DNA of 64,000 nucleotides, taken from contig NZ_CP007139.1 in the NCBI RefSeq assembly GCF_000724625.1, forward strand, positions 186,001 through 250,000. Reading direction: 5' to 3'. This stretch comes from Fimbriimonas ginsengisoli Gsoil 348. Its GTDB lineage: Bacteria; Armatimonadota; Fimbriimonadia; Fimbriimonadales; Fimbriimonadaceae. Below are positions 10,447 through 57,912 of this stretch, piece by piece; position 1 is the stretch's first letter; every line of letters starts with the position of its first letter. The position numbers and the translations under genes are program-made. The notes under the pieces were generated by a model that saw nothing but the letters and a program-made list of their open reading frames with translations, made no database searches and was not told where the DNA came from.

Positions 10447-10893
10447 TCATGGATCGCGCCAGTTTTGGAGCTCGAGTCGGTGGCCAGCGGCAACTATGCG
10501 CGAGAAATGTTTGGTATTGGCGTTTACGAGGGTTAAGTTGTGAGTGATGGCGGTTGCCGCGATGAGACAATCGACCACGCCAATGGCGGTCCCAGCCAGG
10601 ACAAGGTCAGCGTTGATCACCCCAGCCAAGGCCATTACAGCTTGATCCGGGTAGATCACCTCAAACTGCGGTAAGGTTTCGTTCAGAAACTGCGAGATGG
10701 CGGCGTCGAGCCTCTTACGCCTTAAACCATCGACCACCTCCACGATAGTTAAAGCGCTCAATGTGAATTGCGGATATTCGCCTAGGTAGCGGATAGCCTG
10801 GTTTCGGGTGCTTTGCGCCCATGCAGTCTGCTGATGCTTCGGCGCGTTCAGCATGTCGAAATACGTGCTGCTATCGAGGAGCGCTTTAGGCAC
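10447..10893 (-). CDS. vapC: VapC-type PIN-domain toxin (second pair)
   Basis: A 148-residue PIN-domain protein. Candidate catalytic acids are Asp in ALLDSSTYFDM (~7), Glu in LTIVEVVDGLRRKR (~51), Asp in AIGVVDCLIAATAITHNLTL (~108), and the late NANTKHFSRI block where VapC toxins carry Asn/Asp before a conserved HF. It is a different subtype from the 4.3-kb toxin: FxxI-ending, longer and with no HRDPFDR. Its start overlaps the antitoxin end by 8 bp. Confidence 0.85.
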   Translation of the reverse strand: MPKALLDSSTYFDMLNAPKHQQTAWAQSTRNQAIRYLGEYPQFTLSALTIVEVVDGLRRKRLDAAISQFLNETLPQFEVIYPDQAVMALAGVINADLVLAGTAIGVVDCLIAATAITHNLTLVNANTKHFSRIVAAGHRLELQNWRDP

Positions 10894-11232: not shown

Positions 11233-14200
11233 CTAGAGGGGCTTCTTTGCCGTAGCGGCGGAAGAAAGGGGTTCTGGGGTTCGATGCTCTAGATAGTCGA
11301 CGACAAGCGGCAGTAGCCGGTTGGCGAGGCTGAATTTGAGCATGGCGCCGCCGGTGTTGGTGTCGCGCATGAAGAAGTAGCCGGTGACGGTTTTTCCGGG
11401 GACGAAGGCGCCGTTTTGGAAGCGGCCGATGGTGAACATGAGCGATTCGCTGTCGATCTCTTCGCCCAGGGTGCCGGTTTTCATGATCGCACGGTAACCC
11501 TTGAAGTCGACTTGTATCGACTTCGCGGTGCCCGAGATGTGCACTCGCTCCAGCGGAGTCAGCAGCGCTTTCTCCCGCCACGGACCGAGCGAGATCGGGG
11601 CGGGCATCAGCGGGAAGTGCGGCTCCAACCCCTGTTCCAAGCGGGCGGAAACGCGTAAACCGGTCGAGAGGCGGGCGAACGCCTCGGCCATGGAGACGTT
11701 GTTCCACACCGACTGGGCTCCGCCGATGAGCGAGGTCAACAGCTCTTGCTTTACCGAGTGCATCGAGTCGCACTCGTACAGCACACGGCGCGGGACGACT
11801 TCGCTGGCAAAGGTCGGCATGTGGGCGTCCGCTTGCCAGGCGAGAGTCGGCAGGAAGCTCGCCATGCGTTGGTGCACCGCTTCCGACTCGGTCGTCTTAT
11901 TCGGCGGAATCTGCACGTCGTAAAGCTCGGACAGGCCCTGGAACAGCAACGTATCGCTCAGATTCGTCCGCGGCACCCACCCCCCGGTTCGAGGCTCGCG
12001 GGAGACGACGCGGTTGGGGGAGTTCAGCAGATTGATTCGGTACGGCTTGCCTTCGAGGGTGATGTCGGCGTTTGCGGCGTCGGGTACGAGCGTGGTCTTC
12101 AGTTCGTCCGTCGACTCGACCAGACCGAGCGCACCGATAACGCAGGCGGGCCAGGTGCGAGACTGGGTCAGGAATTCCGACATCGTGACCGAACCGGCGG
12201 GCGGGTAGGGCGCGGTCGGAGTCTCCAGCGGAATGCCGCCGAGGTTGTCGTGTTCCAGCGTTCGGTTGTGAACGACGGCGTCCTCCAAGTGATATTTCGG
12301 CAACAGCTTGACCGCCATCGTGGAGAAGGTCAGCGGCTTTATCGTCGAACCGATCACGTGGTTTTCGAAGTTCCAATTACGCAGCAGCTTGCCGCGCCGG
12401 ATCGGGCCGCTCCGGCCGAAGTCATCCTCATACAGGTCCGACGTAGGATCGACGTGCGGGAACGACGGAAGCGCCAGCACATCTCCCTTGAACGTGTCGA
12501 TAAGCGTCATCGACACCGGCTTCGTCCGTTCCGGGTCTTCCAGCTTCCAGTTCAGGCCGCTTCGCGGCGACTGCTGCAGGCACCAGGAGCGCAGAGCGTC
12601 CTGAAGCCGCCGATGCAGGCCGAGGTCCAACGTTAGCTTCAGGTCGTCTTTCGGCTTGACTTCGTCGCCCACGCGGCCGAGATTGGCCACCATGCCGAAC
12701 GAGGGACCACCGGGGAAGACGCGGCGGTATGCGCCGTTTCGCCAGCGGACGAACGCCAGCGGTTCGGCCTGAGTTCCGAGGTAAATCAGGTTGTATCGTC
12801 GCGGGCTTCGGCCGGTGCGGTCTTCTATGGACACGAGGTCGTTCGGCTGGAGCTGCAGCCCGGCATCCGGCACCGGCTTCCCTTCAACGAAAACGCCCCA
12901 ACCGCGCTCGCGGGGAAGCGACTGCGGGATACGGGCCTTGAGGGTGACGAACGTTTTTTTGCCGACCTTACGGCGGCGATACTCGGCGAACTCCACGCGG
13001 CCGAACGGAGAACGGGCGGCGAGAATCGCCGCGTTCGCCCGGGTCACGGGTTGGGCGGAGTCGATCCAGACCACCTCGGGGAATCCGCCTTGGTTTAGCG
13101 AGAGGCTGAGCGGGCTGCTGAGCATGTAGAGCCGGGGGGCCTCTTCACCCGCACCGGCGGCGAGGATGCTCTTACGCCACGGGATTCCCTGTCCGCGTTT
13201 GTACGGCGACGACAGGTGGAAATAGGCACGGTTGACCTCCAGGTCAAACGAGCCGGCCGCATTCGGCTGGATGTAGTAGAGTCCCGCCTGCGGGTCCGAT
13301 TTGTCGGCACGGAAATTGAATTCCCGGATCGCCTCTTTCTCGATCGGGCTGAGCCCGGGCACGGACTCCGGGTCGATGTGCCCGCTGTCCGAAAGCTTCA
13401 CTTGTCCCTGCTCCACCCGCTTCACGACCTGGCGCATTACCTCCGGAGCATCGAGATCCTGGGTGAAGGAGACCGGCATCCCGATGCCTGCGCGGGCGAC
13501 GCCGAGCCAAAGAAGCCCGGAACCAACCCCGAATGCGGTGAAGAGCCAAGAACCCGCCTTCGGTGGCACGTTGGCCCCCCGCGGCCGCCGCTTGAGGAGG
13601 ACGGAAGCGATGGTAAGGAGCACGAGCCCTTGCAGAACGTCGCCTTGCGAGTAGAGCGACAGGAGCGGCAGGTTTTGACCGGTGAACGGGAGCGATCCGG
13701 TGTTGGCGGCCGCCATGTACAGTCCGTTTGCCGCAAAGAAGCCTCCGATCGCCGCGAGCGGCACGAACATCCACGATCCATCGCGCCTCGCGCTGGCGGC
13801 GCCGGCAAAGCAGGCGGCCATGATGACCATGTATAGCGCCGTCAACCAAGCGCCCGCCCACGGCCCGAACTCGCCGAGCACGTAGATCGAGTACGTCGTG
13901 TCGGTCATGGAGGTCGGGTATTTCAGCGCCACCTTAGATAGCGGGGCGCCGCCGTATCCCGGGTTCTTGTCCGACGCGCCGACGGCGGCGTAGAGGAGCA
14001 TCTGCCATTGCTGCTCGCGGTTGTTCCGGTATTGGGTGGCCTCCAAATGCTCGGTGCGAGCCGGATTCAGCAGCATCTCCGGGTCGAGGTCGTCGAGGCT
14101 CGCGAGCCGGTAGGCCACGGTTCCGTTGAACGTCTCGAAGTGCTGGATGAAGAACCGGCGGTTCAGGCTGAGAGCGACCAACGCCAGAAGCGCAACGCCC

Positions 14201-16236
14201 AGGGCAATCGCCACGCCCGAGGTGAAACCACGCGGAGAACGCTTGGTTTGCAACGCGCGGAAAGGGAGCCAGGCCACCAAAAGAGCGAGGCCGATGGAGA
14301 GGCCATACACGAGAGCGCCGTTATCGCCGACCGCCAGCACGTTCATCGCCAGTGCGAGCAGATTCAGAACGACGAAAAATGTAAGGCCGCGGCGGTGCCA
14401 AAGCCCGATTTGCTTCCCTTCGGCTGGAGACGTGTCTTTTCGGGCCGCGACGGCAAGTGCGAATGCCACGAAACCGGCGATAAGTAGAAGATGGGTCCAG
14501 ATACTGGTGCGAATCCCGAACAGATCGTTTCGGGTGCCAAAGATCCGGGCGAGGATCGGCGCAAGCATTCCTAGCGCCGGGAGGACCAAACAGATCCGGT
14601 CGAACGGCAGGCCGAGGAACTGCTTGCGGGTTCCTTCGAGTTGCCGCTGCTTTACTACCGGCAGGTAGCGGAGCCGTGCCAGCGCCATCGCGGCCGGAAT
14701 GGCGACAAGGGCAAAGAGCGATACGCGGAGCGCCTTGTGAAAACTGACGAGCTCGCTGAGGGTCGCATCATCGGGCGGTAGGAGGGAGCACCGGTAGGCG
14801 AGCAGCAGGCGGACAGTGAGCAGGGCGACGGTTCCCACCCACAAGAATGCCCAGGCCACATCTCCGCGACCGACGGGGCGAGCCCGCCACCACAGGGCGA
14901 GGCCGAACAGAACTCCCAGCCCGGCAAACGCAAATAGGGCGAGGCGACCGGCTCCGGGAACGGAAGGTTTATCGACATGAAACCTGGCCTCGATTCCCTG
15001 CTGAAGGTCGCCGAGGTAGACCGGGGCATCGTCGCCGTGGCTCCGTTCCGAGACGCCATCCTGCACCGTCATCCCGGCAGAATCGGGTCGGGCGAGCGCC
15101 TTCGCGTAGAACGGGTGGTTATCGTTTCCGGTGGGAAAGACGAATCCGTCCATCGGCACCATGTCGCGTCCGGACGTCATGAGGAACGACTGCTCGGGAT
15201 CCGCGGGCTTTGCTTTGGGGGGCAGCGGGTACGAGACCGGAACTTCGAATTCGGCCACTAAACGCGATTCGTCGATCTTCGCCGGCAGTTTCAGGGCGAA
15301 CCGTTGCGAACCGGTGAAACCGAAGGAGAGGGTCGCGTCCTGAGTGGCGGGGATCTCCGAGGGGGCGGTTGCGGCTCTCAAGTCCAACGGTTTGTCGTTC
15401 CGAAGAACTTGGACGCCGTCGTCGGCCAGAGCCGGGTCAATGAGCACGCCGATCTTCGATCCTGAGTCTCCCTTTCTCTCCCTGACGACACAGACATCGC
15501 CGAGCATCGACCACGGGTCGACGTCCGTGCCGGCTTGGAGGGCGAGTGGGACATTGGAAGCCGGGAATCGAGTCGCTAGTCCGGCGGCTTGGAGAAGGGT
15601 GGTGAGGCGGGCGCCCTCTCGCAACTGACGGGCGGCAAGTTGGATGGTCTTCGGGTTTGCGGAGTCGCGATAGCCGATCTTCAGCGAGTCCCCGTCCCCT
15701 TCCAGGGTGACGGCGATGAACCGCTCGGGTTCTTTTCGTGAGGTTCGGAAGGTGAACTGGTACGTATCGTTCCGCTGCAACCATCCCCCGGGGATTCCAT
15801 TGACGATCTTTCCATCGATACGGACCGGGGTGTCGATATTCGGACCCTCAACCCGCCAGCTCTTGATCGCGCCGTTCGCCGCATCGGCGATGAGTCTTAC
15901 CCGCTGGCCCGCGCCAAGTCCGGGGATTTGGAATCCGTCGCGCTCGACGGCGTCGGACCGGATCGGATCGCCCGTGAACGTTAGCGCCGGCTTCGAGCCT
16001 TCGGGCGCTCGGGTGTAGAGGCCGACCTGCTGAATACGGGCGAGAGCACGAGCGGGAATGCGAGGGGAGCCGCCGGGTCCGAGTCCCATGTAACCGGCAA
16101 CGGTGATCCCGAGGAGCAGGAGCGATACCGCGCCGAATAGCGTTAGCACCCCCCGCGCCAGCCCAGACGCCTCGTCGTCTTCCCATGGCCGCACCGCCAC
16201 CGCGATGAACGCGAGCACGACGAGACCGATGAACAA
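11233..16236 (-). CDS. SEDS glycosyltransferase fused to class B PBP transpeptidase
   Basis: A 1667-residue membrane protein joining both enzymes of septal or lateral peptidoglycan synthesis. Residues 1-50 hold two hydrophobic segments; ~60-425 is a beta-rich extracytoplasmic region of unknown fold. Residues ~428-900 are multi-helix SEDS (RodA/FtsW/SpoVE-like) with YPTSMTDTTYSIYVLGEFG and TGSLPFTGQNLPLLSLYSQG; Asp779 in TDTTYS matches the catalytic Asp of RodA HTDFIF. Residues ~1190-1667 are a penicillin-binding transpeptidase: LDLGLHRRLQDAL, VLALPSFPHVDP, active Ser1297 in GSTIK (SxxK) and MKTGT at 1585-1589 (KTG). The SxN motif is non-standard; a candidate is Ser1359 in QSRT. No GT51 domain is seen. 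It is the last gene of an apparent three-gene leftward operon. Confidence 0.85.
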   Translation of the reverse strand: MFIGLVVLAFIAVAVRPWEDDEASGLARGVLTLFGAVSLLLLGITVAGYMGLGPGGSPRIPARALARIQQVGLYTRAPEGSKPALTFTGDPIRSDAVERDGFQIPGLGAGQRVRLIADAANGAIKSWRVEGPNIDTPVRIDGKIVNGIPGGWLQRNDTYQFTFRTSRKEPERFIAVTLEGDGDSLKIGYRDSANPKTIQLAARQLREGARLTTLLQAAGLATRFPASNVPLALQAGTDVDPWSMLGDVCVVRERKGDSGSKIGVLIDPALADDGVQVLRNDKPLDLRAATAPSEIPATQDATLSFGFTGSQRFALKLPAKIDESRLVAEFEVPVSYPLPPKAKPADPEQSFLMTSGRDMVPMDGFVFPTGNDNHPFYAKALARPDSAGMTVQDGVSERSHGDDAPVYLGDLQQGIEARFHVDKPSVPGAGRLALFAFAGLGVLFGLALWWRARPVGRGDVAWAFLWVGTVALLTVRLLLAYRCSLLPPDDATLSELVSFHKALRVSLFALVAIPAAMALARLRYLPVVKQRQLEGTRKQFLGLPFDRICLVLPALGMLAPILARIFGTRNDLFGIRTSIWTHLLLIAGFVAFALAVAARKDTSPAEGKQIGLWHRRGLTFFVVLNLLALAMNVLAVGDNGALVYGLSIGLALLVAWLPFRALQTKRSPRGFTSGVAIALGVALLALVALSLNRRFFIQHFETFNGTVAYRLASLDDLDPEMLLNPARTEHLEATQYRNNREQQWQMLLYAAVGASDKNPGYGGAPLSKVALKYPTSMTDTTYSIYVLGEFGPWAGAWLTALYMVIMAACFAGAASARRDGSWMFVPLAAIGGFFAANGLYMAAANTGSLPFTGQNLPLLSLYSQGDVLQGLVLLTIASVLLKRRPRGANVPPKAGSWLFTAFGVGSGLLWLGVARAGIGMPVSFTQDLDAPEVMRQVVKRVEQGQVKLSDSGHIDPESVPGLSPIEKEAIREFNFRADKSDPQAGLYYIQPNAAGSFDLEVNRAYFHLSSPYKRGQGIPWRKSILAAGAGEEAPRLYMLSSPLSLSLNQGGFPEVVWIDSAQPVTRANAAILAARSPFGRVEFAEYRRRKVGKKTFVTLKARIPQSLPRERGWGVFVEGKPVPDAGLQLQPNDLVSIEDRTGRSPRRYNLIYLGTQAEPLAFVRWRNGAYRRVFPGGPSFGMVANLGRVGDEVKPKDDLKLTLDLGLHRRLQDALRSWCLQQSPRSGLNWKLEDPERTKPVSMTLIDTFKGDVLALPSFPHVDPTSDLYEDDFGRSGPIRRGKLLRNWNFENHVIGSTIKPLTFSTMAVKLLPKYHLEDAVVHNRTLEHDNLGGIPLETPTAPYPPAGSVTMSEFLTQSRTWPACVIGALGLVESTDELKTTLVPDAANADITLEGKPYRINLLNSPNRVVSREPRTGGWVPRTNLSDTLLFQGLSELYDVQIPPNKTTESEAVHQRMASFLPTLAWQADAHMPTFASEVVPRRVLYECDSMHSVKQELLTSLIGGAQSVWNNVSMAEAFARLSTGLRVSARLEQGLEPHFPLMPAPISLGPWREKALLTPLERVHISGTAKSIQVDFKGYRAIMKTGTLGEEIDSESLMFTIGRFQNGAFVPGKTVTGYFFMRDTNTGGAMLKFSLANRLLPLVVDYLEHRTPEPLSSAATAKKPL

Positions 16237-16355
16237 GATGGCGGCGAGACAGAAAGTCAGACTGATCGGTTTTCCTCCGTAGGCCCGCCTACGTCTTGGC
16301 TAGACAGGGCGTTGCGAATCTCTTTTTGGGCCCCCAGTCGATGATAAGAAAGGCC

Positions 16356-16378
16356 CATCGGCTGGGAGCCGAAGCTAC
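16356..16378. repeat. Palindrome family D overlapping a stop codon
   Basis: CATCGGCTGGGAGCCGAAGCTAC. The stop codon TAG of the upstream coiled-coil gene (16375-16377) is formed by the CTA at the end of this repeat. Other copies: 18064-18086, 22772-22794, 28055-28077, 57824-57846 and a variant at 44265-44288. Confidence 0.75.
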
Positions 16379-17985
16379 ACGTGGACGGCGTGCGCCGCTC
16401 CCGCGCTATCGGTGCCGAAGTAGAAAGGCGAGAGCTCCAGACCCCGCTGGTGGCGGAGGAGACGGAGCAGCTCGTCGTAGTACCGGGCGTGGGCATGCGG
16501 TTGCGTCGACTCCAAGATGGTCCCCTCGCCAAGGTCCGCCAGTAGACGTTGTACGGTGGCAGTTAGCTTTCGGGCATGCGGCGTCGATCCGAAGCTGGAG
16601 GCGATTCGCTCAATATTGGTGAGCATCGCTCGGGCAAGGATCGGGTTTGGCTTCGCTACCGATTCAAGCAGCTCTGCGCACGAGAAGCTTAACAAATAGC
16701 CGACGGCCGCGGAAATTTCGGGGCGGCCGACTTCACTTTGAATGTAATTGAAAGCCTCGGCGGCCTCGCGCTGAAGGTCGGCGTAGGCCCGCGCCCGCGC
16801 GGTTAGCGCCTGAAGCTCGGCGCCCGACCGCTGGCCGCTTCGCGTCAGGGAGTCGACTTGCTGGGTAAGTTCGCGGCCGACGCGCTGGTGTTCGTCCTGA
16901 GCCTGCTTCAGTTTCGCAGCCAAAGCGTCGGCATCGGCACGGGCTTTATGGTGCGCCGCCCGCTCATCCTCGATCGACTTGACTGTCTCGTCGCGGTCCC
17001 GTACCCAAGCGTTGTGCTGGTCGCGGTACTCCTTGGAAGAGCGCTTGGTCTCCTCCAATGCCTGCTTCAACATTAGGATCTCTTCGTCCCGCTTGGCCAG
17101 GCGCGCCGACAGGTCCGCGGCTACTCGCTTGCTGTCGTCAACAGGCGCAGCCGGCTTTTTCTTTGGCGCCACCGCGGCACGAACGGCGAAGCCGGCTCCT
17201 CCCCCTACGAGCAGCGAGAGGAGCACGGGTAGCCAAGGGAACCCTGTGCCTTCTTTGGGTTCGGCCACGGTTGTGGGGGTCGCCGGCTTGCCGGAGGAGC
17301 CTCCGGTTGTGGGCGCGGGAGCGGCTAGCGCCGGCGGCGTGATGTCCAAGACGACCGGCCCCTTGGCGCCTTCGATGAGAATCGGTCCCGGTTGAACGGC
17401 AGAAGTCGAAACCGCCGATACGAAGTCGGAGAGCGGGTTCGCGCTGCCAGAGGGGGCGCCTACCTTTTGCAGGAGCGCGGCGCCGACCTGTGGCCCAGTG
17501 GCGGAAAGGCGCTGTTCTAGAAAACTCTCTACCCCGGGGGCGTCGGACGAGGTCCACCCGGAAGTTCCGTTCGTGAAGGTCGCCGAGGACTCGCGACCGG
17601 TCGGATCGTAGGCCCTCAAACGGGTGTTTTTCGGGTCCAAAACCTTGGTTTCGAGCGAGGCGCTCGGTTTCAACAGAACGACGCCGCCGAGAGGGCTGCC
17701 TGCTTGGACGGCGTCGAGGGTCGTCTTCCAAGGGGATTCAACCCCTTTTCCGACGAGCGTCTTGAGCCGAGCCAGCCAAGTTCGGTCTTTTTCTTTGCCG
17801 GCCGGTTGGATCGTCCATCCGCCTTGGGGGCTCGCGGTGACGGTCGGCGCACCTTTTAGCCAAAGGCGAATCCGTCCATCGGGAAATTGAAACACGCGAA
17901 TCGGGTCGGCGGCGGAGGCGACGGTCGAGACGAGGATTAGGCCAATGAGGACCGCGGGTCGAAGTGGGTGTGCACGGAGCGGCAC
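16375..17985 (-). CDS. Bitopic membrane protein with long cytoplasmic coiled coil
   Basis: About 536 residues from a GTG at 17983-17985. A TTG at 18093 overlapping the previous stop is possible, but the extra 36 codons fall wholly in dispersed repeats. From the GTG comes a clean signal peptide (hydrophobic AVLIGLILVSTVA, cleavage ASA-ADP). Then come an extracytoplasmic region of ~220 residues, a Pro/Ala/Thr-rich linker, one membrane helix (FPWLPVLLSLLVGGGAGFAV) and a KKK cytoplasmic anchor. A ~125-residue charged heptad coiled coil and a helical C-terminal domain follow. No enzyme motif. It lies between the vWA-ATPase gene and the SEDS-PBP gene, suggesting a scaffold that bridges them. Confidence 0.72.
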   Translation of the reverse strand: MPLRAHPLRPAVLIGLILVSTVASAADPIRVFQFPDGRIRLWLKGAPTVTASPQGGWTIQPAGKEKDRTWLARLKTLVGKGVESPWKTTLDAVQAGSPLGGVVLLKPSASLETKVLDPKNTRLRAYDPTGRESSATFTNGTSGWTSSDAPGVESFLEQRLSATGPQVGAALLQKVGAPSGSANPLSDFVSAVSTSAVQPGPILIEGAKGPVVLDITPPALAAPAPTTGGSSGKPATPTTVAEPKEGTGFPWLPVLLSLLVGGGAGFAVRAAVAPKKKPAAPVDDSKRVAADLSARLAKRDEEILMLKQALEETKRSSKEYRDQHNAWVRDRDETVKSIEDERAAHHKARADADALAAKLKQAQDEHQRVGRELTQQVDSLTRSGQRSGAELQALTARARAYADLQREAAEAFNYIQSEVGRPEISAAVGYLLSFSCAELLESVAKPNPILARAMLTNIERIASSFGSTPHARKLTATVQRLLADLGEGTILESTQPHAHARYYDELLRLLRHQRGLELSPFYFGTDSAGAAHAVHV

Positions 17986-18086
17986 GCGTAGGTGCCGGCT
18001 ACACGGCTTCGCCATAGGGGAGGCCGCTCTGGAGAGCGGCGGTCCGGGGCTTCGCCGCCGGGTCATCGGCTGGGAGCCGATGCTAC
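17986..18086. repeat. Composite repeat (family B copy 2 plus family D)
   Basis: CACGCGTAGGTGCCGGCTAC, then GGCTTCGCCATAGGGGAGGC, CTCTGGAGAGCGGCGGTCC, and finally CATCGGCTGGGAGCCGATG followed by CTAC. The first modules match 6392-6503 in order. The block fills the space between the vWA-ATPase stop (18090) and the likely start of the coiled-coil gene. Confidence 0.72.
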
Positions 18087-18089
18087 TTT

Positions 18090-21000
18090 TCAATTTTGCG
18101 GCTCCCGGGGGAGTTGGTCGGGCCAGACTTTTTTCCAGATGTTGTCCTTCAACTCGCCGAAGTTCCCAAGTCGGACGGGGGCGCCGTTGACGGCTAGGCG
18201 GCGGATCGTTCCTTCGGTCTCCGGCTGGTAAGTTACACAGAATTCGCGGCCGGTGAAGCGACCGAGGCGGCTGATCATTCCGTCGTCGAACTCGGTTCCC
18301 GAGTGGAACGCGCCGGGGGTGAAGACGAAGTAGTGGCCGACGTCGGTCGGCGTTCGAACCATGTCGGCTCCCTCCGAGTTCAGCTCCTGCATTCGCACCG
18401 AGTACACCTGGGCGGCTTCGTCGGTTTGGGCGACTTTTACGAAGCCGTACGTCCCGTGCAAGGCGTCCCGGTTCTGGGGGCGGTGCCCCGAAGTCGCGTA
18501 GACCACCGCGCCTTTGCTGCAGGCATCCTTCGAATCCTGGCCCGTCAGCGTGTCGAGCGCGACGATGTCGCGCCCCACCCGGTCTCCGAAAAGCTCCCGC
18601 AATGCCCGCCGAATCGGGCCGAATTGTGAGGCTTGACCGCCGACCACGACGTGGGTTCTGCCCCGTTCGACGATGCTTTGAATCGCTAGATCGACTTCTT
18701 CACGCACGGAGCCGAGGCTGCCGAACGCCTGGGCATCGGTCTTGTTTGCAACCGTGGCTCCGAGCTCGATGAGGAGCCGGTGGATGTTGAGTTGGACGTA
18801 ATTGCGGATCTGCGCGCCGAGCCAGTCGAGGTTGGCGGTGTCTCGCTCCTTAGCGGCACGGGCCACCTTCGGCTTGTCGGGCGCGACGCGGCGCGAGCCT
18901 TTGATTCGCGCCAGCATTTCACGCCACATTGCCCGCAGCTCCGCTTTAAACGATCGCTTCGGGCGGTCTTTTAGCGTCGCCAACACGCCGCGGCCGAGGT
19001 CTGCCTCGACGACGAGAGCGTCGTGGAGCCGCTGTCGAAACTCCTCGATTCCGGCCGATTGGTTGATCGACCAGTCGGGGATATCCAGATAGCCGATCTC
19101 GACGAAGCGCATGATGCTGCGCACGATGGTCTCGATCGCGGGTTGGGCGCTCGCCGGCGTCGTCATGGAATACCGTTCGCCAAACGCCTGCTTGACTTCC
19201 TCGACGAGGTCCGCCATCGCATAGAGGGCTTCGGAGTAGGCCGCGTCGGAGACCAGTCCCGGATTCTTCACCCAGAGGAAGCTCATCGGAGGCTCGACCA
19301 TCGGACCGAGGTTCCCTCGATCGCCGAGCAAATGGCCGTGTTCGCGGAAAACGCGCTTCAGCTCGCGCTCGAAGAACTGAACGAACAGGTAGGTGAGCTC
19401 TCCGCCGCCCGAGCTGCGCCCGGTTCGGGCTCGGACCCACACGTGCTCTTCGCCATCGACCACTTGCGTCTGAAGCAGGCTCAGATCGGTCGTTCCGCGG
19501 CCGACGTCGATGGTCAGGATCTGTGTCGACGGGGAGGGATCGTCCGAATCCGTCGCGCCTTTCGCTTTGCGCGGCTTCGATAAGTAGTAGTACGCGAGCG
19601 CGTCGGACTCCGAGATCGTGCTCACCCGTCCCACCCGCGCGTACCGCTCGACGGTTCGTCGCAGGTTTTCTGCGTGCTCGACGCTATACACGTTCGGCAC
19701 CGTTAGGATCACCTCGATCTCGTTCGGGTCGATCCCTCGCAAGATCGGCGACTGGAGGATTAGGTTACGAAGCACCTGGGTAGTCAGGTGGCCGATCGCG
19801 GTCTCCGGCGAGAGGTCGAGCGGCTCGCCGGTGATGGTCCGGAAGTTGGGGAACGCCTCTCGGATGCCGTATTGGAACATCACCTTGGGGTTTGGCAGGG
19901 TGGTGTTCACTTTAGGGGCGACCCGCGCCGACTGAAACATCAGGAAGATGCTCTGCCGGTAACCGGGCAAAATGGTCGGCTCGGCCCGAGTCAGGTCGAA
20001 GAAATCGAGCGTCGCGTGCCACTCGGGGAGGGTTCGCTCCGCCTGGTTCTCCTGGAGCTCGATTCGGCTTCGCAAGCGCGGCGAGACGTCGGCGGGGGCG
20101 CCCCCTCGCTGGGTCCAGAGAAGGTTCGGCTGCCGGTCCGGCACCATGATCGGCGCGAAATGCTGCAGTGGCACCATCCGCAATTCTTGCCCGTCGTCGG
20201 TGGCGTAGACGGCGGCCATCGAATCGGAGCCGAGGTCGAGAGCGACGTAATGCTTCATCTGTCGGGAAACCAGCGCCTTCCGGGCGGGAAGCGGACGCGG
20301 ATACGTGATCTCGGCGGAGCAGGCGTCGCTGCCGCGTCGAACCGATACGTTTGCTTGTACCGGATACGGCGGAACCTCTGCCCAGGTGGCAATCGCGTCT
20401 CCGGCAAACGCCTCGACCGGCACTTCCAGGGACGTTTGGCCTAGCCACCGGGCATCGCCATCCTTGACGGCCAGGGTTAGGGTGGCGTCACGGTAAAAAA
20501 TCCGTCGCATCCAACGGGGTGGGAGGATCACTCTCAGCGCTTCCCCGCCTACGAACGGCGGCTTCGGCACCTCGTCCGCGATCGGAGCCACCTGGATGCC
20601 AAGGGCGGGCAGCAAGATTGGATTCCCGTAGCCCGGCAGCTTTAGGCGGAAGTGCCGGCCCGCGCGCCAGGAATACCAAAGCCAAAGCGCCGTCCCCGCC
20701 ACGGTTGCGAACAGGAGAAAGAGGAAACTGTTTTCCAGCCGCCGGCCAATCGTGTGGGTGCCCGGTATCGGTACCGCGGCATTGATAACGTAGACGGTAT
20801 CGGCGCGCCGGGTACCGAGCCAACCGCCCGGTTGATCGGATGTGACGGCGAGCCGCACCGTCGCCGGCTCGACCCCGCCGGGCAGTGAGCCAAACTTCAT
20901 GGGCGACTCGAGGGTATCGCCGGCCTCGCCAACTTTCCCCTCGCCGTGGGCGTTCGGGGAACCGGCGGTGATTCGCGCCGCCGCGTGCTGCCCGAACCGC

Positions 21001-21881
21001 TTGCGGATCTTTTCGCTCGGATCGATACGAACCACCGCGGTGGGATGGGGACCTCCCTCGTCTTGCCACCCGATGTCGATCGATCCGACCGCAGGAATGG
21101 CGGCCGCTTCGGCGGACGCGCGTTCGCGAGCTCGATTCAGCACCTCGTATCCGCTGAGATAGACCGGCTTTGCCTTACCGAAGGCTCGGATCTCTTGCTC
21201 GAAAAGCGGCTCCTCGACTCCGTCGGCGCCAACAAACCGGTACTCCTTTCCGACCTTTCGCCGCAGCGCTCGAATCCATGCCGAGTCGCCGGGCCGGGCG
21301 AAGTGCTCCAGCACCTCCGCCTCTTCGGCCATGGTGCCGCCGTTCGCCTCGTTATCGCTAAGGATGAGCACGAAGGTTCGCTGGACCCTTGTTCCACTCG
21401 GAACCTGGGACGCGTCCAGAGCCATTGCTCGAGCCCACGCCAGGGCGGTCAGGTTGTAGCCCCGCTCCGGCTGAAGAGCGTCGGCGAGTTGCTCTCGGGT
21501 GACCCGCGGCTCATGCGTGATCTGAGGGTGGAGGTAATCCTTCTTAAGGTCGTGCCATTTCAGCCTTCGGTAGGCGGTCGAAGCTTCGCCGCCGGAATCG
21601 ATGCCGAATTGAAGGACCGTGACGAGATCGTGCGCCGGATCGAAGCGAGGGAGTCCCTCGAGCTTTTCACTTCCGTAAAGCGAATCGAGTAAGCGATGGA
21701 CCGCTCTCTTCGCGGAAGAGGACCGTTCCCCTTGCATCGACCGGGAGGCGTCGAGAAGGACGATCAGATGGTTGGGATGGTCCGGCACCACCGTCCCGCC
21801 TTCCGCCCAAGCTCCAACGGCCGCCGCAAGCAGAGCCGCGGCGGCCAGGAGGCGGGGGAGGAAGGACGAGTTCGAAAGCAT
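18090..21881 (-). CDS. vWA domain - membrane helix - Hsp70/actin-like ATPase fusion
   Basis: A 1263-residue protein. Residues 1-26 are a signal peptide (LLAAAALLAAAVGAWA). A von Willebrand A domain (~37-250) has a MIDAS DASRS at 44-48, a Thr in NLTALAWA and Asp in LILSDNEANGG. One membrane helix at ~385-404 is followed by Arg/Lys, so the rest is cytoplasmic. After a beta region (~410-540) comes an Hsp70/actin-fold ATPase: phosphate-1 YVALDLGSDSMAAVY (~545-559), EVILTVPNVYSVEHAENLRR, SESDALAYYYL, phosphate-2 TIDVGRGTTDLSLL (~790-803) and an adenosine-type motif HVVVGGQASQFGPIRRAL near 1085. This places a metal-dependent adhesion domain outside and a nucleotide-driven domain inside. It is the first of three genes ending in SEDS-PBP. 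Confidence 0.82.
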   Translation of the reverse strand: MLSNSSFLPRLLAAAALLAAAVGAWAEGGTVVPDHPNHLIVLLDASRSMQGERSSSAKRAVHRLLDSLYGSEKLEGLPRFDPAHDLVTVLQFGIDSGGEASTAYRRLKWHDLKKDYLHPQITHEPRVTREQLADALQPERGYNLTALAWARAMALDASQVPSGTRVQRTFVLILSDNEANGGTMAEEAEVLEHFARPGDSAWIRALRRKVGKEYRFVGADGVEEPLFEQEIRAFGKAKPVYLSGYEVLNRARERASAEAAAIPAVGSIDIGWQDEGGPHPTAVVRIDPSEKIRKRFGQHAAARITAGSPNAHGEGKVGEAGDTLESPMKFGSLPGGVEPATVRLAVTSDQPGGWLGTRRADTVYVINAAVPIPGTHTIGRRLENSFLFLLFATVAGTALWLWYSWRAGRHFRLKLPGYGNPILLPALGIQVAPIADEVPKPPFVGGEALRVILPPRWMRRIFYRDATLTLAVKDGDARWLGQTSLEVPVEAFAGDAIATWAEVPPYPVQANVSVRRGSDACSAEITYPRPLPARKALVSRQMKHYVALDLGSDSMAAVYATDDGQELRMVPLQHFAPIMVPDRQPNLLWTQRGGAPADVSPRLRSRIELQENQAERTLPEWHATLDFFDLTRAEPTILPGYRQSIFLMFQSARVAPKVNTTLPNPKVMFQYGIREAFPNFRTITGEPLDLSPETAIGHLTTQVLRNLILQSPILRGIDPNEIEVILTVPNVYSVEHAENLRRTVERYARVGRVSTISESDALAYYYLSKPRKAKGATDSDDPSPSTQILTIDVGRGTTDLSLLQTQVVDGEEHVWVRARTGRSSGGGELTYLFVQFFERELKRVFREHGHLLGDRGNLGPMVEPPMSFLWVKNPGLVSDAAYSEALYAMADLVEEVKQAFGERYSMTTPASAQPAIETIVRSIMRFVEIGYLDIPDWSINQSAGIEEFRQRLHDALVVEADLGRGVLATLKDRPKRSFKAELRAMWREMLARIKGSRRVAPDKPKVARAAKERDTANLDWLGAQIRNYVQLNIHRLLIELGATVANKTDAQAFGSLGSVREEVDLAIQSIVERGRTHVVVGGQASQFGPIRRALRELFGDRVGRDIVALDTLTGQDSKDACSKGAVVYATSGHRPQNRDALHGTYGFVKVAQTDEAAQVYSVRMQELNSEGADMVRTPTDVGHYFVFTPGAFHSGTEFDDGMISRLGRFTGREFCVTYQPETEGTIRRLAVNGAPVRLGNFGELKDNIWKKVWPDQLPREPQN

Positions 21882-21932: not shown

Positions 21933-22442
21933 TCAGGCTTCGGCGAATAGGTCACGGACGGTTTTATAGGATAAGAACAGCCGCAGCGGATTCACGGTTG
22001 AGGGGATCATGTCGAACTTTTCATAGAACCGCTTGGCTTCCTCATCCTTTGCATCTACTACAAAGAGGCGAACGGGAGCCGCTCCGGATTCCATTACGGC
22101 CCATGTCCTACGAATTGCGTCCACGAAGAGCGAACGTCCGAGACCTTTCCCTTGCACCGACCGGTCGACGGCAAATCGCGCCATAAGCACTGCCGGTATG
22201 GTGCTGGGCATCCCTCGTCCCAGTTTCTTTGGCGACTCTTCTTGTCTGACTGAGACGAATGTAAGCGTGTAATATCCGACGACACGGAGCCCGCTCGCCA
22301 CTACGTAAGTGCGGGAGAGCATCGCGTTCTGCTTATCTAATGCGTGAAGTCGCAGAAAGTCGTTCAACTGAGGCTTGCCGCAGTCGAACAGGGAAGTTTG
22401 GTGGCCATCTCGTATCGGGACGGGCGGGCTAAGCTCGATCAT
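21933..22442 (-). CDS. GNAT acetyltransferase, TacT-type toxin
   Basis: A 169-residue GNAT protein. TacT toxins acetylate the amino group of aminoacyl-tRNA and stop translation. Features are an N-terminal DGHQTSLFDCGKPQLNDFLR (the 'F.cG...Ld.fL' opening typical of this toxin clade), VVGYYTLTFVSV, MARFAVDRSVQGKGLGRSLFVDAI (acetyl-CoA loop QGKGLG) and a C-terminal FYEKFDMIPS with the Tyr general-acid position. It overlaps the DUF1778 gene by 14 bp. Confidence 0.85.
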   Translation of the reverse strand: MIELSPPVPIRDGHQTSLFDCGKPQLNDFLRLHALDKQNAMLSRTYVVASGLRVVGYYTLTFVSVRQEESPKKLGRGMPSTIPAVLMARFAVDRSVQGKGLGRSLFVDAIRRTWAVMESGAAPVRLFVVDAKDEEAKRFYEKFDMIPSTVNPLRLFLSYKTVRDLFAEA

Positions 22443-22716
22443 CCCAAACCGGTGTCTTTTTCAGGGCCTCGCGGAGGTGGGGCGTGGGACTCGCTTCGTC
22501 CATTAGGGACGCGAGCCATCGATACTCTTCCGCAGAGACGGTAACCACCGCCTCTGCGGCAATTACCTGCTCTGCCTCGCGTAGAGAGGCTTGAAGCACA
22601 AACTGACTGACGTTCATATGCCTCGCCAGCGCGGCTTGGGCAAGGACCGCCTTCTGGTCGGCACTCGTCCGAATTGAAAGTCGATCTTCTTTCCCGTTCG
22701 AGGCTAGGTGTGACAT
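22429..22716 (-). CDS. DUF1778 (TacA-type) antitoxin
   Basis: 95 residues from the ATG at 22714-22716. Longer upstream frames run into repeats. It has an N-terminal ribbon-helix-helix region (DRLSIRTSADQKAVLAQAAL, then MNVSQFVLQASLREAEQVI) and a C-terminal tail that would cover the toxin (PTPHLREALKKTPVWDDRA). DUF1778 proteins repress their own operon together with the GNAT toxin. A strong promoter lies only about 10 bp upstream, so the transcript should be nearly leaderless, which agrees with the missing Shine-Dalgarno. Confidence 0.85.
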   Translation of the reverse strand: MSHLASNGKEDRLSIRTSADQKAVLAQAALARHMNVSQFVLQASLREAEQVIAAEAVVTVSAEEYRWLASLMDEASPTPHLREALKKTPVWDDRA

Positions 22717-22726
22717 CGCAGGTTCA

Positions 22727-22756
22727 ATTGTATCACCAACGTACACCCACTGGCAA
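22727..22756 (-). promoter_or_regulatory. Sigma-70-type promoter of the TacA/TacT operon
   Basis: On the minus strand TTGCCA (22751-22756), an 18-bp spacer and TACAAT (22727-22732). The predicted start of transcription falls a few bases before the antitoxin ATG. Confidence 0.65.
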
Positions 22757-22771
22757 GGGGAAACATGGATC

Positions 22772-22794
22772 CATCGGCTGGAAACCAGTGCTAC
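22772..22794. repeat. Palindrome family D, diverged copy
   Basis: CATCGGCTGGAAACCAGTGC followed by TAC; stem CTGG/CCAG with compensating changes relative to the main family. A C-rich family A-like remnant follows at about 22800-22832. Confidence 0.6.
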
Positions 22795-22902
22795 GACCGG
22801 AACCTCCACCCCCAACCCCCCTCCTCCTCCCGTTCGCGATCTGCGGTGTCGAAATATGGGACACGGTAACCGCGACGGCAAGAGGAGGGGGCTCCGGAGA
22901 GG

Positions 22903-22932
22903 TTGGCAAAACCTGCGCGGATGGTGTAAGGT
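22903..22932 (+). promoter_or_regulatory. Candidate promoter of the ilv leader
   Basis: TTGGCA (22903-22908), an 18-bp spacer and TAAGGT (22927-22932). The -35 is good and the -10 weak (three of six consensus positions). It lies directly before the leader peptide at 22943. Confidence 0.4.
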
Positions 22933-22942
22933 GTATGTAACC

Positions 22943-23047
22943 GTGAGTTCACACGTCGTCGCGAGCAAGGTTCAGGTCCGGGATACCAAGGTGTCCGGGC
23001 TTCTGCTTGCGTCTCTATCCCTAATTATTCTAGGCATTACCACTTAA
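22943..23047 (+). CDS. ilvL: Branched-chain amino acid leader peptide (attenuator)
   Basis: A 34-codon frame starting GTG with AAGGTG 9 nt upstream. The second half reads LLLASLSLIILGITT before TAA: six Leu, three Ile and two Thr in 15 residues, with six Val (counting the GTG start) in the first half. Such a peptide senses charged tRNA for exactly the amino acids made by the downstream genes. When those tRNAs are short, the ribosome stalls and the terminator hairpin at 23083-23116 is prevented from forming. It ends 36 nt before that hairpin and 166 nt before ilvB. The symbol is used by function; homology to enterobacterial IlvL is not implied. Confidence 0.75.
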   Translation: MSSHVVASKVQVRDTKVSGLLLASLSLIILGITT

Positions 23048-28023: not shown

Positions 28024-28842
28024 ATGCCACAGCCACTCGTAGAGACCGGAGATTCATCGGCTGGGAGCCGATGCTACGGGGCGCTTTTGGAGATGCGCGA
28101 CGTCACCGTCGTGCGAGATGGACGGATTGCCCTCGACTCCGTCTCTCTCACCATCGAGCGAGGCGAGAACGTTGCGATCCTCGGGCCGAACGGTTGCGGC
28201 AAGTCGACCCTCGTTAAGCTCATCGACCGGGAGCTCTATCCCAGGGCCGACCACGGATCGATGCGAATTCTTGGCCGCCAGCGTTGGAATGTAACCGAGC
28301 TAAGGAAAGAGCTGGGGATCGTCACGAACGACCTACAGGCGCAAATCCTGCCAGAGACTTCGGTCCTCGACGCAGTCGTCGCCGGGTTCCAGGGCAAGCT
28401 CGGCGTGTACTACGACGAGGGAACGCCCGAGCGGCTCGCAGCAGCCCAGGCGGCGCTAGTGGCGGCGGAGGCGGCCCACCTATCGGATCGAGTCTTCGGC
28501 GCGCTCTCGTCGGGAGAGGCGCGGCGGGTTTTGATTGCCCGGGCGCTCGCCCACGACCCGGGTTCCCTTCTTCTCGACGAGCCGACGACCAGCCTCGATC
28601 TGGTAAGCGCCCACGCCCTTCTGGAGACGTTGCGACGGACCGGCAAAGGGCTCGTGCTCGTCACTCACCACCTTGAAGAGATCATCCCGGAGATCGACCG
28701 GGTCGTCCTGCTGAAGGCGGGTCGAATCCTCGCCGATGGACCCCGTCGGGAAGTGATGACGAGCCAAAACCTCTCTCAGCTCTTCTGCACCGACATCGTT
28801 CTCCAAGGGGATGGCCCCTATTCCGCCCAGGTGCGAAGATGA
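28024..28842 (+). CDS. ABC transporter-type ATPase
   Basis: A single nucleotide-binding domain: Walker A GPNGCGKSTLVKLI, Q-loop in VTNDLQAQILPET, signature LSSGEARRVLIARAL (LSSGE in place of LSGGQ), Walker B SLLLDEPTTSLD and H-loop LVTHHLEEI. The first ~23 residues encoded after the ATG at 28024 include a family D palindrome (28055-28077). Translation may really start at TTG 28087 or ATG 28093, where the domain begins (MRDVTVVRDGRIALDSVSL). No permease is adjacent. It overlaps ilvA by 4 bp (ATGA), so expression is coupled. It resembles stand-alone YlmA/ModF-like ATPases. Confidence 0.85.
   Translation: MPQPLVETGDSSAGSRCYGALLEMRDVTVVRDGRIALDSVSLTIERGENVAILGPNGCGKSTLVKLIDRELYPRADHGSMRILGRQRWNVTELRKELGIVTNDLQAQILPETSVLDAVVAGFQGKLGVYYDEGTPERLAAAQAALVAAEAAHLSDRVFGALSSGEARRVLIARALAHDPGSLLLDEPTTSLDLVSAHALLETLRRTGKGLVLVTHHLEEIIPEIDRVVLLKAGRILADGPRREVMTSQNLSQLFCTDIVLQGDGPYSAQVRR
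28055..28077. repeat. Palindrome family D copy at the 5' end of the ABC ATPase gene
   Basis: CATCGGCTGGGAGCCGATGC followed by TAC, identical to 18064-18086. If the ATPase is translated from 28024, this repeat encodes residues ~11-18. Confidence 0.78.
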
Positions 28843-57773: not shown

Positions 57774-57912
57774 GGCACGGGCTTCCAGCCCGTGCGTATC
57801 ACGACCATCCCGGTCGTGCAAACGTAGCATCGGCTCCCAGCTGATGAACCCAAAAACGAAATGGCCAGGCGCAGGATGCCCCTGGGACCCACTGGCAAGA
57901 TGCCAGTGCCAC
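57774..57912. repeat. Array of five short palindromes
   Basis: GGCACGGGCTTCCAGCCCGTG, CACGACCATCCCGGTCGTG, the family D unit GTAGCATCGGCTCCCAGCTG plus ATG (57824-57846), then CAGGATGCCCCTG-type and CACTGGCAAGATGCCAGTGC plus CACG. Units are back to back between the convergent S41 and LolA-like genes. Stems differ while the stem-loop design is kept. Confidence 0.75.

Follow-up and report, generated by a model that had tools for sequence, protein, structure and literature searches.

A conserved operon of a few Armatimonadota combines vWA, ATPase, and single-pass helix proteins with a divergent SEDS–PBP fusion

A stretch of 64,000 nucleotides from Fimbriimonas ginsengisoli Gsoil 348 (NZ_CP007139.1, positions 186,001 to 250,000; hereafter the window) contains an operon of three leftward genes encoding a vWA–transmembrane (TM)–ATPase chain (product 1), a single-pass helix protein (product 2), and a fusion of a SEDS polymerase with a class B penicillin-binding protein (PBP) (product 3). 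The gene set is conserved and, as far as the literature was searched, undescribed, and it is made up of divergent representatives of known families. Gene content, predicted folds, catalytic residues, gene order, co-occurrence, and parallel tree topology were established for it. Sequence, structural models, and analogy suggest that the operon encodes an auxiliary, ATP-switched, vWA-positioned peptidoglycan synthase complex, a reading towards which we lean slightly. The source genome comprises 5.23 Mb in one contig and belongs to the phylum Armatimonadota.

The ATPase family was found in five of 291 Armatimonadota genomes, and the full-length SEDS–PBP family was found in exactly those five; within the genus, 16 of 20 genomes had neither family. 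The other four genomes were three congeners (loci L021–L023) and a metagenome-assembled genome of Chthonomonas from another class (L024). In 5/5 genomes, the ATPase and SEDS–PBP genes were located in one operon on a single strand, with a shared order and approximately 30% protein identity, and the co-localization of homologues on which the initial annotation had rested its view of a cell-wall machine was thus observed throughout. The order in L021–L023 was vWA, ATPase, single-pass helix protein, and SEDS–PBP on one strand; in L021 and L023, the helix protein was divided between two genes. An overlap of 28 nt between the ATPase and helix-protein genes was seen in each of the three loci, the vWA/ATPase and ATPase/helix-protein genes abutted or overlapped in most congeners, and the genes flanking the operon were unrelated between congeners. 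The order in L024 was two kinase-like genes, a 1492-aa vWA–TM–Hsp70-like chain, a TM protein, the ATPase chain, a single-pass protein, the SEDS–PBP, and a transglutaminase-like gene. Trees of the ATPase and the SEDS–PBP, built by a quick method, concurred in grouping the window with Chthonomonas (moderate support of 85–86) and in placing the three congeners apart. Weak matches to the SEDS–PBP family were obtained in 12 further genomes, and those inspected were ordinary PBPs or ordinary SEDS–PBP fusions. A contig scan beyond the phylum returned Armatimonadota only, using short peptide patterns that reach close relatives only. That the genes are chance neighbours with no common function is very improbable: the cluster does occur in two genera only, but the co-occurrence is perfect, the order is kept in two classes at this level of identity, and the genes overlap. 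A mobile or viral origin was rejected, as the ATPase had no match in plasmids and the SEDS–PBP none in viral contigs.

Product 3 was initially annotated as holding polymerase and crosslinker in one chain, and this held. Alone, it gave no Pfam match, PF01098 included, and matched NCBIfam ftsW weakly (E 0.004); the comparison of hidden Markov models (HMM–HMM) between the product 3 family and ordinary SEDS–PBP fusions gave an E value of 5e-12. In an alignment of five product 3 homologues and six ordinary SEDS–PBP fusions, all from Armatimonadota (n = 11), the SEDS Asp785, SxxK, and KTG were aligned and invariant in 11/11; RodA–PBP2, FtsW–FtsI, and natural fusions likewise have this Asp, SxxK, and KTG. 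Against solved structures, the SEDS–PBP profile gave only weak PBP3/FtsW matches (E 0.01–0.2), and the three ordinary fusions scanned, of the six, matched PF01098 and PF00905 (E 1e-35 to 3e-63). Natural fusions with SEDS followed by PBP on a single chain have been mentioned (PMC10449877), and the fusion as such is known; of the full gene-set composition, which the initial annotation knew from no described system, no description was found in the open-access literature. Unlike ordinary fusions, product 3 is approximately 550–680 aa longer with extra N-terminal and inter-domain regions, lies under Pfam thresholds, lacks the SxN motif, and is tied to vWA/ATPase genes. The rest of the genome encodes two canonical SEDS, three transpeptidase-domain PBPs, and two MreB; judged by sequence, the window SEDS–PBP is therefore an extra synthase, in agreement with the "parallel" machine proposed initially.

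Among the ordinary fusions, those within L097:5805-13313 and L100:5075-12391 lie beside FhaA-, PP2C-, and Ser/Thr-kinase-like genes, and these clusters recall the actinobacterial pstP-rodA-pbpA-pknB with rodA and pbpA fused. The fusions at L095:2494-5673 and L100:9413-12391 carry an N-terminal helix-hairpin-helix domain (HHH_3; E 4.7e-17 and 1.9e-8), which is usually associated with DNA binding and here occurs in envelope enzymes.

For product 1, the signal peptide, the vWA domain with its metal-ion-dependent adhesion site (MIDAS), the single TM helix, and the three nucleotide motifs of the initial annotation were all recovered by model, hydropathy, and alignment. The vWA domain was seen weakly by Pfam (PF00092, E 0.008–0.03); when residues 1–540 were modelled from an alignment of five homologues, a Rossmann-like vWA fold was obtained, and nearly all top rows were vWA or integrin I-domains (Z 8.2–9.6) over residues ~33–235. 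Hydropathy gave one TM helix besides the signal peptide, and the cytoplasmic beta domain that follows is also N-terminal in an 863-aa chain of L024 (E 4.5e-6). Searching solved structures with profiles built on the ATPase or vWA alignments yielded nothing useful.

Six homologues were used to model the ATPase part (pLDDT 59.7, pTM 0.61). The model matched DnaK/Hsp70 (Foldseek E 2.7e-11; VIA Z 14–17 for DnaK/BiP), and MreB (Z 13.9) ranked among the rows of Hsp70 nucleotide-binding domains. Some Hsp70 alignments ran past this domain into the beta region of the substrate-binding domain (BiP 27–522). The window chain had no PF00012 match in the Pfam scan. The nucleotide loops LDLGSDS, ESDA, DVGRGTTDL, and VVGGQASQF (phosphate-1, phosphate-2, and adenosine motifs) were intact, and their key residues, on which the initial view also depended, were kept across the six homologues with one exception (ESHA in L024). 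The assignment of the fold is uncertain, with Hsp70 scoring best in the model and MreB close behind; of the "actin-like engine" proposed initially, the Hsp70/actin superfamily fold was retained, and the actin-type label is uncertain. It is unlikely, in our view, that the ATPase polymerizes like MreB or MamK into a membrane-tethered filament that positions the SEDS–PBP in the manner of the elongasome: the actin superfamily fold with its MreB match, the adjoining SEDS–PBP, and the McaA–MamK precedent (PMC9512821) point to such a filament, but the large helical insert and the C-terminal beta domain of the model exceed the MreB fold, and hhalign placed DnaK above MreB.

The covalent link between the vWA domain and the ATPase, which the initial annotation took as characteristic, was not general. 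Among SEDS-linked operons, the fusion of vWA with this ATPase family was seen only in the window; the two are separate adjoining genes in L021–L023, and in L020, a second operon of the source genome, they lie in the same frame with one stop and two codons between them. Covalent linkage is therefore a variant of an otherwise general adjacency. Homologues of the genes were co-localized in 5/5 genomes, but the orthologues of the operon did not share the fusion. A more distant case of the architecture is the 1492-aa chain of L024 (L024:3314-7792, +; ATPase HMM E 1.6e-19, vWA HMM E 1e-4), which lies beside the two kinase-like genes.

L020 (G000:C1:2886001-2906000) is a paralogous operon without SEDS–PBP. 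Its products are a secreted protein with a single membrane pass, a small TM protein, Tubulin_2 (E 1.9e-69), a MIDAS-bearing vWA–TM protein, an ATPase that shares 36% identity with that of the window and falls in the same tree clade, and a TM-helix protein. The window operon contains no Tubulin_2, the only one of the genome being that of the second operon at 2.90 Mb. As the L020 trio matches that of the window, vWA, ATPase, and TM-helix protein are the constant core, and SEDS–PBP or Tubulin_2 is the changing part. The presence of this core beside Tubulin_2 thus links the window operon to the vWA/FtsZl1 (Tubulin_2, PF13809) operons predicted as membrane-remodelling systems by Makarova and Koonin in 2010 (PMC2875224). 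These resemble it in a signal-peptide/TM vWA protein, an operon of membrane proteins, and a cytoskeletal-type NTPase, and differ in having Tubulin_2 instead of SEDS–PBP as output. The main text of that paper contains neither Hsp70 nor DnaK, has "actin-like" solely in the title of a reference, and refers to peptidoglycan for OmpA domains only, and the Hsp70-like part of Tubulin_2 loci thus goes unnamed in the description. In other Armatimonadota, Tubulin_2 loci have Hsp70-like neighbours (L090:39-2243, L092:4612-6906, L094:15840-18422, L108:1532-4027, and L109:3172-5535) with a TM or zinc-ribbon N-terminus and with helix-rich and degenerate vWA–TM proteins nearby. PF00012 matches were obtained for such neighbours (E 1.7e-13 and 2.4e-6). 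They were classed as relatives and not as members of the ATPase family because hhalign against the window ATPase spanned 163 columns only (E 1.9e-7).

Two further explanations were weighed against this background. The ATPase might be an Hsp70-like chaperone or assembly factor that folds, inserts, or remodels the SEDS–PBP or its regulators, and not a switch or positioner. The Hsp70 top matches, some reaching the following beta domain, the PF00012 matches of the relatives, and the adenosine loop VVGGQASQF, which we take to be comparable to the GGQT-type loop of Hsp70, are consistent with this role; we nevertheless doubt it, as an outer vWA domain is joined to the ATPase across the membrane, the same core accompanies a Tubulin_2 protein, no DnaJ or GrpE partner was recognized in the operons, and the MreB match is near. 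It is rather more doubtful that the cluster branches off the FtsZl1/vWA membrane-remodelling systems and recruited the SEDS–PBP for a specialized wall structure or signalling, and not as a processive synthase; the shared core, the changed SxN motif, and the patchy spread suggest it, whereas the retention of the SEDS Asp together with SxxK and KTG despite high divergence speaks against it.

Product 2 was initially described as having a signal peptide, one helix, and a long internal coiled coil. Besides the signal peptide, hydropathy gave one helix at aa 286-304 (nt 17182-17238), and a charged stretch of 88 residues free of Pro and Gly was reached by 0 of 2000 shuffles; the heptad signal in this helix stretch was not significant (fraction of shuffles 0.15). 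An anti-phage defence function was also considered and rejected, the PADLOC matches for product 2 being of coiled-coil type only.

In known SEDS–PBP synthases, MreB or FtsZ/FtsA exerts control by way of several linker proteins. In the auxiliary synthase complex that we favour, the SEDS–PBP fusion would polymerize and crosslink glycan outside the membrane, and the vWA ectodomain would bind a periplasmic or envelope partner, thereby placing or gating the complex. The TM helix and the cytoplasmic beta domain would join the vWA domain to the cytoplasmic Hsp70/actin-type ATPase, which would act as a switch whose ATP cycle alters conformation or assembly, and product 2 would link the ATPase to the SEDS–PBP. 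The core (vWA–TM, ATPase, and TM-helix protein) would then be a module with swappable outputs, either SEDS–PBP or the tubulin-like FtsZl1. We infer the physical complex, its topology, ATP dependence, positioning role, and activity, and the roles are assigned by analogy with McaA/MamK, for which there is experimental work. McaA is a signal-peptide–vWA–TM protein that requires its MIDAS for localization and through this placement controls the actin-like MamK (PMC9512821), and McaA, McaB, and MamK interact (PMC13170167). The likeness lies in a signal peptide–vWA(MIDAS)–TM–cytoplasmic protein, an actin-like ATPase, and a second single-pass protein; the other partners and the output (magnetosome positioning) differ. 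The elongasome (MreB, MreC/D, RodZ, RodA, and PBP2) likewise has an actin-superfamily ATPase, a single-pass linker, and SEDS–PBP, whereas the window ATPase scores highest with Hsp70 and no MreC/D/RodZ-like protein was recognized in the operon.

Several observations weigh against the proposed complex. As four of the five genomes belong to one genus, the co-occurrences are not five independent events but few. The SEDS-adjacent ATPase chain of L024 has the cytoplasmic beta domain without vWA or TM, which, with the separate vWA and ATPase genes of L021–L023, also speaks against covalent linkage as a general feature. The MIDAS motif DxSxS, present in product 1 (DASRS), L020, and L021, is missing in two SEDS-linked vWA proteins (L022 and L023); judging from these sequences, metal binding cannot be a requirement throughout the family, contrary to the metal-dependent binding assumed initially. 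The second PBP motif is SCN in 6/6 ordinary fusions, whereas SxN is absent from all five members of the product 3 family (SRT in four and SYD in one), and transpeptidation may therefore be altered. The confidence of the ATPase model is low.

The cluster suggests an undescribed control of cell-wall synthesis from inside the cell in a few Armatimonadota. If sensor domain, ATPase, and synthase travel together, the transmission from nucleotide state to glycan synthesis could be tested directly, and the SEDS–PBP would be a first enzymatic output of vWA/FtsZl1-type clusters, for which a role has been predicted (2010) and not gone beyond prediction. A third SEDS-based wall machine besides elongasome and divisome, with an outer vWA sensor connected across the membrane to an Hsp70-type ATP switch that drives a covalent polymerase–crosslinker, and with a plug-in sensor/ATPase core also used with tubulin-like GTPases, is a tentative possibility that we consider improbable at present.

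The three genes were listed as leftward open reading frames (ORFs) at 21881-18090, 18093-16375, and 16236-11233, spaced by repeats as initially annotated, with a palindromic repeat in both gaps. The repeat, CATCGGCTGGGAGCCGA, has 93 exact copies in the genome vs. 0 for the reversed control; further copies in the window lie at 28055-28071 and 57830-57846. ORF 2 as listed opens at TTG 18093, and because its first codons are the palindromic repeat, the true start of product 2 is probably GTG 17985 (codon 37), which yields a clean signal peptide. The start of product 3 probably lies upstream of the listed TTG 16236, where GGAGG precedes a non-ATG codon near 16260-16266.

Table 1. Features of the operon in window coordinates, with borders of genes 2 and 3 at their probable starts
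Feature	Position	Strand	Description or basis
Product 1 gene	18090..21881	-	1263-aa chain of signal peptide, vWA, beta domain, TM, cytoplasmic beta domain, and Hsp70/actin-fold ATPase
Predicted outer vWA domain, aa 33-235	21177..21785	-	model, VIA Z 8.2-9.6 to vWA/I-domains
MIDAS motif DASRS, aa 44-48	21738..21752	-	sequence
TM helix of product 1, aa 385-403	20673..20729	-	hydropathy; C-terminal flank rich in R/K
Cytoplasmic beta domain between TM and ATPase, aa 410-530, conserved	20292..20654	-	alignment
Hsp70/actin-fold ATPase, aa 542-1263	18093..20258	-	structure matches and nucleotide motifs
Palindromic dispersed repeat between genes 1 and 2	18064..18086		
Product 2 gene	16375..17985	-	signal peptide, outer domain, one TM, long cytoplasmic helix, conserved C-terminal domain
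Palindromic dispersed repeat between genes 2 and 3, same as at 18064..18086	16356..16378		
Product 3 gene	11233..16266	-	~1670 aa; SEDS–class B PBP fusion of divergent sequence
Predicted cytoplasmic N-terminal domain of product 3, preceded by two TM helices, in 5/5 homologues	14965..16092	-	hydropathy, alignment
SEDS polymerase domain	13585..14961	-	NCBIfam ftsW E 0.004; HMM–HMM
SEDS catalytic-type Asp785 (MTD), periplasmic loop 4, equivalent to E. coli RodA D262 by motif (PMC10449877)	13900..13902	-	
Class B PBP transpeptidase region	11305..13542	-	alignment
PBP SxxK motif STIK	12337..12348	-	Ser and Lys in 11/11
PBP KTG motif	11473..11481	-	11/11

Just upstream of the operon, window positions 21933-22968 (-) encode a GNAT acetyltransferase and a DUF1778-like small protein with the look of a TacT/TacA-type toxin–antitoxin pair. 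Just downstream, positions 10447-10893 (-) encode a PIN-domain protein (PF01850, E 8e-11), a possible VapC-type toxin.

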